DNA from: an uncultured Clostridium sp.
GTDB lineage: Bacteria > Bacillota > Clostridia > Clostridiales > Clostridiaceae
Direction: 5' to 3'
Assembly: GCA_934746015.1 (NCBI GenBank)
Contig: CAKVEW010000009.1
Span: forward strand, 47,967-111,966
Length of the DNA stretch: 64,000 nt
Part shown: piece by piece, positions 27,902 through 33,383 of the stretch
Layout of the letters: every line of letters begins with the position of its first letter
How positions within the stretch are numbered: the first letter of the stretch is position 1
The notes under the pieces: generated by a model
What the model was told of the DNA's origin: nothing
Database searches by the model: none
What the model saw: the letters and a program-made list of their open reading frames with translations, nothing else
Program-made: the position numbers and the translations under genes

Positions 27902-29929
<2,028 letters not shown>

Positions 29930-30059: not shown

Positions 30060-30079
30060 AGTTTTTGCTCGCAAAAACT
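30060..30079 (-). terminator. Hairpin at the pcrA stop codon
   Basis: AGTTTTTGC and GCAAAAACT arms overlap the pcrA stop codon. It could stabilise the mRNA end or partially terminate before ligA. Confidence 0.45.
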
Positions 30080-33000
30080 ACAGCAGTTCTAGGTTTGCTA
30101 ATGAAAGCATCAGTATCTTTATCCCTTGACTATCAAAGGCTATAGTTAGCTTCTTATCGCTTCCTGTATCTGCAATTGCTACTATTGTTCCAACTCCAAA
30201 CTTACTATGTTTTACCTTTCTTCCCATAGTAACCTCATCTCCTGAAACTGTAGATTTTGGTTTTTGTGGTTGTGGCTTTGGTCTATTCATAGAGCTTCCT
30301 CTTAAACTATGAGGATTATTAAAGCTACTTTCTGGTTTAAACATTGATTTTCTTGTTTCTTGTGCTCCTCCAGTTGCTGATACATATTCCTTTAAGTCTG
30401 GTTTAATTTCTGCTATAAAGTCAGATTGAGGATAGGCTACAGTTCTTCCAAATTGTCTCCTAACTTCAGCAGATGTCATAAATAATTGTTCCTTTGCTCT
30501 AGTTATTCCAACATAACAAAGTCTTCTTGACTCTTCCATTTCTGATTCACTATCAAAGGAAGCAACTCCTGGGAAGATTCCATTTTCCATTCCTACCATA
30601 AATACTACTGGGAACTCTAAACCCTTAGCACTATGAACAGTCATTAAAACTATTGTATCATCTTCCTCTTCAAGCTTATCAGTATCTTGAACTAAGGATA
30701 CCTTTTCTAAGTATGCAGATAAGCTCTTATCTTCACTACTCTTTTCAAAATCAACAGCATCAGATACTAATTCCTTTAAGTTTTCTATTCTACTCTTATC
30801 TTCTATTTCATCTGACTTTTCTAATTCAGCTATATATCCTGTTTCCTTTAATATAGTTTCTATTAATACTGATACAGGCATAACTTCACTCATATCTAGG
30901 AATCTTTCCATCATTTCCATAAATACTTCTATTCCGCCACAATTTCTTGCAGTAAGTGTTGGAATATTTCTTACCGTATTTAAAGCGTCCCATAATGGAA
31001 GTTCATAATCATCAGCAAAATCAACAACTTTGTTAACAGTTGCGTCTCCAATTCCCCTCTTTGGAACATTTATAATTCTTCTTAAACTTATACTATCTGT
31101 TGGATTTACTAATACCTTTAAGTATGAAAGCATATCCTTAATTTCTTTTCTATCATAGAACCTAGTTCCGCCTAAAATTTTATATGGAATATCGTTTCTT
31201 CTTAGGCTTTCTTCAAATATACGTGATTGAGCATTAGTTCTATAAAGAATTGCAAAATCCTTAAAGCTTTTATTTTCTGCTTCTTTTATCTTATTTATTT
31301 GACTTGCAACAAAGTTTCCTTCATCTGAGTCTGAGTATGCTCTATATACTTTGATTTTATTACCTGATTCTTGTTCAGTTCTTAAAACCTTACTTTTTCT
31401 ATTTGCATTATTAACTATAACTACATTTGCTGCATCTAAAATATTACCCTTTGAACGATAGTTTTGTTCAAGTTTTATTACTTTTGCATTAGGGTAATCT
31501 TTTTCAAAGTCTAGTATATTCCTAATGTCAGCACCTCTCCATTGGTAGATACAGTTGTGAACAACAATGTCATTAGCTATATAATTTCTTGCATAATCTA
31601 TATTTAAATCATAAACATTTCCACTATAATCTTCAAATTCTACAGAGACTATTTTATCTTCAATTATATTGCTATCCCTTAAAATAGGTAATACCATTCC
31701 TTCTTTTAAACTTCCCATCGGCATAAATTTAAAGGTATTATCAGAAGTTAATTTAGCCTTTTTAACTATTTCAAATTCATCACAAGTTTCCTGAAGTTTT
31801 TTAGCAAACTCTTCTGCATCATCATATAGAGCTCTTTCTGTTTCTACTCTAAAAGTATTTCTTTGCCCATCTCTAACATTAAATCCAGCACTTATAAATT
31901 TATTTTTATCTTCTTCTCCTGAAGTGTTTAATCCTATTCTATGTGAACAAATTCCTCTTTCTTCAGGTTTACGTCCACTGAAAAAGCTTAAGTTAATTAA
32001 TTTTCTTACACTTTCTCCTCTAATTACTGCAGAACTTATGTGGTGAGGATAATCTTTATATAAAAATTCTTCATCCATTAATCTATCTGCTGCATCCAGA
32101 GTATTTATTTCTTTAAATAAATTATTTATTTGTTCTTGTCTCAAAGATATATTTCTTCCCTTAGCACTAAATACTACCTTAGGAATACCATATTTAACAG
32201 AATAAAACTCTTCATAATAAGTTGCCTCTCCCTTAGATTCACAAACCTTTATTATCCACATCTTATCTGCTTTTTCACCATTTAATCTAACTGCTAATCC
32301 ACTAGCTTTTCTATTTTCTCTACTTCTAATTGAAGAAGTTTGGCCTATTCTATATCCATATCCCTTTTTATACATAAGATATACATAATATTTCCCTTCT
32401 TCAATTGCTACCCTAGTAAAAGTTAAATGATTTGGAGTAGATTTAATAACTTTTCCACTTTCAGTAGTTATCTTTACTACCTTACCTTCATAACTTCTTT
32501 TAGAAATATTCTTAACTTCTAGTAGTTTAGTTTCACCATTACCAACTGCAACTCTTACCTTGTCAGAGGTATTTAATTCTTCAATTTTCATTTTTCCATT
32601 TTCAGATTCAATTATAGTTCCTTCAACTAAACATTGATCATCATCTCCAACTACACAGATATTCTTATGACTTTCTGCAAGTAGTCTAATTAATTCATAC
32701 TGAACCTTATTTGTATCTTGGTACTCATCTACCATAATATATTGGAATTTTCTTTGATAAAATTCTAAAGTTTCTTTATTGCTTTTAAATAATTCTACTG
32801 TCTTAAATATTAAGTCATCAAAATCTAAGGCATTGTTTTCTTTAAGCCTCTTTTGATACATTTCATAAACATCTGCTATTTTCTTTTCTCTAAAATTGCT
32901 TTCATGTTCTCTCATAAAGCTTGAAGGACTTTGCATATTATCCTTAGCTTTACCTATCTTACCCATTATTTCTTGTAAGGTTATATCTTTATCATTTATA

Positions 33001-33383
33001 TTTAAAGACTTCATACACTCTTTTATAAGAGTCTTTTGATCTGAAGTATCATAAATTGTGAAATTTTTCTTATATCCTATCTTATCTATTTCTCTTCTAA
33101 GTATCTTTACACAAGTAGAGTGGAAGGTTGATATCCACATATCTTCTGCTCTTTCTCCTATTAAAGCTTTAACTCTGTCCTTCATTTCTTTAGCAGCTTT
33201 ATTAGTAAAAGTTATAGCTAAGATTTTATATGGTAAAATCCCTAAATCATCTATCATATGAGCCATTCTATATGTCAAAACTCTAGTTTTTCCTGAACCT
33301 GCTCCTGCTAGTATTAATACTTGACCATCTACAGTAGTAGCCCCTTCGTATTGTTCTTTGTTAAGTAATGACTTTAAATCCAT
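30078..33383 (-). CDS. pcrA: ATP-dependent DNA helicase PcrA with an intein
   Basis: UvrD/PcrA superfamily 1 helicase acting in repair and replication restart. The reading frame has 1101 codons; removing a 360-residue intein (residues 251-610) leaves a normal 741-residue helicase. Walker A is AGAGSGKT at 26-33 and motif II is DEYQDTN near 218-224. The intein interrupts motif III exactly: VGDDDQ, then the intein, then CIYQWRGAD. The C-terminal half carries the later helicase motifs (TVHSAKGLEFPVVF and RRLCYVGITRA) and the usual C-terminal tudor-like domain after a Pro-rich linker. First gene of the pcrA-ligA operon. Confidence 0.97.
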   Translation of the reverse strand: MDLKSLLNKEQYEGATTVDGQVLILAGAGSGKTRVLTYRMAHMIDDLGILPYKILAITFTNKAAKEMKDRVKALIGERAEDMWISTFHSTCVKILRREIDKIGYKKNFTIYDTSDQKTLIKECMKSLNINDKDITLQEIMGKIGKAKDNMQSPSSFMREHESNFREKKIADVYEMYQKRLKENNALDFDDLIFKTVELFKSNKETLEFYQRKFQYIMVDEYQDTNKVQYELIRLLAESHKNICVVGDDDQCLVEGTIIESENGKMKIEELNTSDKVRVAVGNGETKLLEVKNISKRSYEGKVVKITTESGKVIKSTPNHLTFTRVAIEEGKYYVYLMYKKGYGYRIGQTSSIRSRENRKASGLAVRLNGEKADKMWIIKVCESKGEATYYEEFYSVKYGIPKVVFSAKGRNISLRQEQINNLFKEINTLDAADRLMDEEFLYKDYPHHISSAVIRGESVRKLINLSFFSGRKPEERGICSHRIGLNTSGEEDKNKFISAGFNVRDGQRNTFRVETERALYDDAEEFAKKLQETCDEFEIVKKAKLTSDNTFKFMPMGSLKEGMVLPILRDSNIIEDKIVSVEFEDYSGNVYDLNIDYARNYIANDIVVHNCIYQWRGADIRNILDFEKDYPNAKVIKLEQNYRSKGNILDAANVVIVNNANRKSKVLRTEQESGNKIKVYRAYSDSDEGNFVASQINKIKEAENKSFKDFAILYRTNAQSRIFEESLRRNDIPYKILGGTRFYDRKEIKDMLSYLKVLVNPTDSISLRRIINVPKRGIGDATVNKVVDFADDYELPLWDALNTVRNIPTLTARNCGGIEVFMEMMERFLDMSEVMPVSVLIETILKETGYIAELEKSDEIEDKSRIENLKELVSDAVDFEKSSEDKSLSAYLEKVSLVQDTDKLEEEDDTIVLMTVHSAKGLEFPVVFMVGMENGIFPGVASFDSESEMEESRRLCYVGITRAKEQLFMTSAEVRRQFGRTVAYPQSDFIAEIKPDLKEYVSATGGAQETRKSMFKPESSFNNPHSLRGSSMNRPKPQPQKPKSTVSGDEVTMGRKVKHSKFGVGTIVAIADTGSDKKLTIAFDSQGIKILMLSLANLELL
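31554..32633 (-). other. Intein in PcrA with GIY-YIG-like nuclease insert
   Basis: In-frame intein of 360 residues inside PcrA. It starts at Cys1 (CLVEGTII, splicing block A); block B is STPNHLTF with His69; the end is a block F/G stretch NIDYARNYIANDIVVHN with the last His-Asn pair, followed by the extein Cys. All splicing residues are present, so it should be active. In the middle, residues 82-160 read YYVYLMY, then YRIGQT, then Arg103/Arg105, then an ATYYEEFYSVKYGIP helix; these fit the GIY-YIG nuclease order (Tyr, Tyr-x-Ile-Gly, Arg, Glu). No LAGLIDADG motif was seen. A further 120 residues may recognise DNA. Confidence 0.9.

Follow-up and report, generated by a model that had tools for sequence, protein, structure and literature searches.

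A PcrA intein with a probable divergent GIY-YIG nuclease in an uncultured Clostridium, and its relatives in bacteria and phages

The 64,000-nucleotide stretch of DNA analysed here (the window; uncultured Clostridium sp., contig CAKVEW010000009.1, positions 47,967 to 111,966) contains pcrA, a DNA-repair helicase gene, interrupted by an intein. The element is a real intein, probably active and mobile. On the structure model and sequence comparisons, the most likely identity of the insert is a divergent GIY-YIG nuclease (residues 79-198) followed by a removable domain; we infer that the element splices, cuts and homes. On balance we think it probable that such inteins form a large overlooked mobile class, present in plasmids, phages and bacteria of several phyla and located for the most part at the Gln of motif III of superfamily 1 (SF1) helicases. 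Two forms would exist, a minimal one with the nuclease module alone and a long one that adds a recognition domain; phages may carry such inteins between phyla, and in Clostridium selection would act more strongly on the nuclease than on the splicing domain. If so, inteins have captured a further nuclease fold that is now widely distributed, with Pfam recognising just the splicing part in the proteins listed. The natural minimal and long versions would allow tests of how modular nucleases home, the class would supply new site-specific enzymes of the GIY-YIG type, and the Clostridium intein would be a test case for constraint on a homing nuclease in a mostly vertical lineage.

The intein in motif III of PcrA

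An earlier note on this DNA, written by a model from the letters alone, had described a 360-residue intein inserted in motif III of PcrA, after a Gln and before a Cys. The open reading frame, the junction (GDDDQ/CIYQWRGA) and the intein profiles agree with it. The class 1 splicing residues that it listed are all found: C1, block B (T66-P67-N68-H69), the terminal H359-N360 and Cys+1. Pfam Intein_splicing matches with an E-value of 3.2e-18, the NCBIfam profiles for the N-terminal and C-terminal intein regions both match, and the Hint fold of a class 1 intein is present. We regard the insertion as a confirmed class 1 intein, with splicing predicted from residues and fold.

The nuclease module and the C-terminal domain

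We extracted modules from 258 proteins, of which 4 failed the motif filter and were dropped, and from 38 inserts of the window and the loci described below (292 in all), and retained 84 non-redundant modules below 75% identity, excluding two decayed copies. Tyr85, Met87, Arg95, Gly97, Trp126 and Glu141 are invariant (84/84), and Arg116 and Glu120 are each conserved in 82 modules. The window intein reads Y83-V-Y85, Y94-R-I-G97, Arg and Glu141. The order Tyr-x-Tyr, Tyr-x-Ile-Gly, Arg, Glu proposed earlier therefore stands, with two corrections: the YIG tyrosine is not conserved, R95 and G97 being the invariant positions, and the candidate catalytic arginine is R116 rather than R103, because R103 is absent from 4 of 8 Chloroflexota relatives and from the aligned phage and plasmid relatives. 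Among the hallmarks of a GIY-YIG nuclease, the Tyr of the GIY motif is found on strand 1 (Y85), the central Arg in the helix that follows strand 2 and a hairpin (R116, at an unusual spacing) and the Glu in the C-terminal part (E141). The YIG tyrosine two residues before the Gly is missing, its position being taken by R95 in 84/84. Lysine occupies it in all nine displayed sequences of the T5orf172/MUG113 families, which we take to be GIY-YIG relatives.

The structure model of the insert is a confident prediction whose topology favours GIY-YIG. A fold search against viral structures and a profile comparison of the module each gave weak but specific GIY-YIG matches, and sub-threshold Pfam matches to SegE_GIY-YIG occur in 4 of the 24 family members. 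Against this assignment, the Pfam GIY-YIG family (PF01541) scores the window intein at 14.7 bits, below its gathering cut-off of 22.6; it matches none of the six phage and plasmid relatives. The homing families include GIY-YIG, and LAGLIDADG enzymes make up most intein nucleases, according to the available part of a review (PMC7765530). One alternative is that the insert is a LAGLIDADG (or HNH) nuclease that has degenerated, the Tyr-x-Tyr and Tyr-x-Ile-Gly motifs being there by chance; LAGLIDADG entries are 13 of 50 Foldseek rows against the PDB, and the alternation of strands and helices in the C-terminal add-on would suit such a fold. Those rows, however, have a prob of at most 0.18. With hhalign, the module against LAGLIDADG_3 (18-sequence reference) reaches a prob of 0.4-1.4, against permuted maxima of 1.2-2.8, the add-on 0.3 (permuted 0.8), and HNH at most 0.2. 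No LAGLIDADG or HNH match is among the Pfam families shown for the 24 members, and the near-invariance of the GIY-YIG residues is contrary to a chance motif. We hold this alternative to be very improbable; model topology, viral fold search, sub-threshold Pfam matches and the controlled profile comparison all support the earlier preference for GIY-YIG over LAGLIDADG.

The weak scores to known families would also fit a related fold that binds DNA without cutting it and serves as a linker or solubility domain. Such a role is scarcely credible, given that Arg116 and Glu141 are near-invariant across phyla and phages and that both decayed copies have lost Arg116. The C-terminal add-on, of about 100 residues with strands and helices alternating in the model, is removable, since five phage and plasmid relatives lack it (L110, L111, L112, L114 and L116). 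That it is a separate, putative DNA-recognition domain, as proposed earlier, is plausible in view of these minimal relatives; structure and profile searches yielded no fold assignment for it.

Relatives in bacteria, plasmids and phages

A single scan of genome contigs yielded 24 loci, in Clostridium and its kin, one Calditrichales record, Bacilli metagenome-assembled genomes (MAGs), Chloroflexota, Rokubacteria and Nomurabacteria. The same motif III insertion is present in the 22 loci where our script detected both junctions. By eye, the intein of L017 follows GDDSQ; the L013 sequence, at the end of a contig, starts within the insert region. Block B of L017 (3764-4840) reads TKEH in place of TPNH, with the histidine retained. 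The Chloroflexi record L021 belongs to a phylum in which matches occur in 8 of 201 genomes, its own among them. A search with one Chloroflexota insert returned 1010 proteins (clusters at 90% identity), and the 120 matches listed include Azospirillum, Steroidobacteraceae, Rubrobacteraceae and Armatimonadota. Among the Pfam labels in the listed rows of three protein searches (120, 120 and 17), helicase, intein and Hint families are present and nuclease families are not.

Phages gave 67 matching records; the 60 seen comprise Justusliebigvirus/phi92 helicases, SPO1-like helicases, Streptococcus phage methylases and others. Plasmids gave four matches, two of which were examined. Helicase genes on plasmids of Thermobispora bispora (L111) and Nostoc (L110) carry the minimal form of the PcrA-type intein. 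In Streptococcus phage Javan575 (L114, 1367-3478), an adenine-specific methyltransferase bears a minimal intein with the same nuclease module; helicases are thus not the only hosts of the type. Fifteen Streptococcus phage records match; by name, the 13 rows seen comprise ten adenine-specific methyltransferases, two DNA methylases and one ParB-like nuclease; L114 is the one whose sequence was read.

As judged from these sequences, the GIY-YIG intein type is common in databases, in Clostridium, Chloroflexota, Bacilli, Proteobacteria, phages SPO1/phi92 and Streptococcus phage methylases. The earlier note had expected such inteins to be rare and named prior abundance in databases as a finding that would tell against it; that expectation fails, given 1010 protein clusters from one search with a Chloroflexota relative and a type common across bacteria and phages. 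"Rare" may apply only to published descriptions: the literature searched, with subscription papers mostly outside reach, yielded no account of a contiguous intein that contains a GIY-YIG domain. The accessible part of a 2006 survey states that GIY-YIG nucleases were not found in inteins (PMC1564403), a combination here widespread in bacteria and their viruses. The family is widespread yet apparently unrecognised.

Several known systems resemble the window intein in part. That of Bacillus phage SPO1 gp34.33 likewise follows GDDDQ of a UvrD-type helicase and has the same module (VYLM...FRVG...R...E), but is 275 aa long and lacks the add-on. The likeness of the CampHawk UvrD-helicase intein is known from a search match and a published mention; in the text available, the SPO1/CampHawk intein is reported without a nuclease type (PMC3868849). 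The helicase inteins of phi92/Justusliebigvirus share module and add-on in a UvrD/Rep-like helicase, but show about 35% identity over the aligned part of the insert and belong to a different helicase branch. I-TevI-type intron nucleases and SegE carry the canonical YIG tyrosine. They too combine a GIY-YIG module with a separate DNA-binding region, but are encoded in group I introns or free-standing, according to the accessible part of the 2006 survey (PMC1564403). The AceL NrdHF intein is also associated with a putative GIY-YIG homing nuclease, but there, in the text available, a split intein of class 3 is involved, and a putative intervening gene encodes the nuclease (PMC7891396). LAGLIDADG inteins such as PI-SceI share the Hint fold and carry a nuclease at the same loop, but we judge the fold of that nuclease unrelated to the one in the window intein.

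Mobility, constraint and decay

We are largely confident that a class 1 intein homes here with a GIY-YIG-type nuclease. The PcrA precursor would be translated with the intein included, and the Hint domain would excise itself via Cys1, His69, His359-Asn360 and Cys+1, rejoining motif III. The insert, at the usual endonuclease position of a Hint domain, would fold as a divergent GIY-YIG nuclease with Tyr85, Arg95-x-Gly97, Arg116 and Glu141. Its substrate would be intein-free pcrA, cut at the motif III codons or close to them, with the add-on probably reading the target site, and repair templated by the intein-bearing copy would spread the element.

In gene comparisons the intein looks mobile, with a patchy distribution in Clostridium, empty sites, one tree conflict and a cross-phylum similarity exceeding that of the host gene. 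Of the 68 genomes in the genus of Clostridium nigeriense (centre included), 18 match, one of them (G069) weakly (E 2e-4, about 60 positions) and perhaps by chance. The site was read in the 30 best-scoring genomes, i.e. those closest to the window, of 65 with a pcrA match; 10 bear the intein and 20 are free of it. All 20 intein-free genes have the intact site CVVGDDDQ-CIY[QA]WRGA, with the Cys already there. When the intein label is mapped on the extein tree (31 genes), at least 5 changes are needed (4-5 across the bootstrap trees, with 3 forced by starred branches), and intein presence varies within close sister pairs. Extein and intein trees are broadly congruent apart from C. saudiense (L005), whose extein falls in the window's group and whose intein falls with L006/L007/L032; the approximately unbiased (AU) test, for clades named only after the trees had been seen, rejected the alternative placement in both trees (p 0.011 and 0.0015). 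The ratio of intein to extein distance has a median of 1.26 within Clostridium sensu lato and of 0.30 towards L015/L016, pointing to transfer between phyla, with the caveat that the long extein distance may be saturated. The label is nevertheless clustered on the extein tree (shuffled labels average 9.3 changes). L015, a record named Calditrichales bacterium, is 66% identical to the Clostridiales MAG L016 in both pcrA extein and intein, through either whole-gene transfer or a label problem.

Nonsynonymous distances (dN) were compared over 91 pairs of 14 intact genes, with 7 disjoint pairs, and show purifying selection. The nuclease module has a lower dN than the splicing domain in 91/91 pairs (7/7 disjoint) and than the add-on in 86, and a higher dN than the N-extein in 89. 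A nuclease more constrained than the splicing domain is unpredicted by the usual picture of decay after fixation. Two Clostridium pcrA genes (G035 and G021; loci L035 and L036) carry inteins of 339 and 314 residues that retain C1, block B TPNH, HN, Cys+1 and Glu141 and have lost Arg116 together with stretches of the insert; on sequence grounds, these decayed copies are natural intermediates towards mini-inteins. Their nuclease dN exceeds Hint dN in 14/14 and 13/14 comparisons. The order is thus reversed in them. The nuclease is therefore maintained in the window's lineage and decays elsewhere, as predicted by the homing cycle.

A GIY-YIG-derived domain that has ceased to home and persists because of a role in the host or in splicing (a domesticated or regulatory intein) would account for the largely congruent trees of the window's clade, for the clustered label, for a constraint unexpected in a nuclease already fixed in its lineage, and for insertion in the ATP-sensing motif. 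We consider it unlikely: close relatives without the intein exist, two lineages dropped the nuclease but retained the splicing residues, and the tree conflict and cross-phylum similarity require transfer. The coupling of splicing to cell state that the earlier note suggested finds no support in these results. A homing GIY-YIG intein is the reading we prefer; Table 1 gives its features.

Table 1. Features of the intein-bearing pcrA gene (window coordinates)
Feature	Position	Strand	Remarks
PcrA precursor open reading frame	30078-33383	-	1101 aa; TIGR01073 930 bits (cut-off 911)
PcrA N-extein	32634..33383	-	residues 1-250; ends CVVGDDDQ
Intein, whole	31554..32633	-	360 residues, C1 to HN; precursor residues 251-610
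Hint N-terminal (splicing) part	32406..32633	-	residues 1-76; C1 and block B T66-P-N-H69
GIY-YIG-like nuclease module	32040..32399	-	intein residues 79-198
Tyr85, Tyr of GIY motif	32379..32381	-	84/84 non-redundant modules
R95-I96-G97, YIG variant	32343..32351	-	R95 84/84, G97 84/84
Arg116, candidate catalytic Arg	32286..32288	-	predicted helix 112-119; 82/84; absent from both decayed copies
Glu141, candidate catalytic (metal-binding) Glu	32211..32213	-	predicted helix 134-148; 84/84; retained in both decayed copies
C-terminal add-on, probable DNA recognition	31740..32039	-	residues 199-298; missing from 5 minimal relatives
Hint C-terminal part	31554..31733	-	residues 301-360; ends VVHN
PcrA C-extein	30078..31553	-	begins with Cys+1 (CIYQWRGA)

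The gene ligA, which encodes an NAD-dependent DNA ligase (window 27902-29902), immediately follows pcrA downstream and lies on the same strand.
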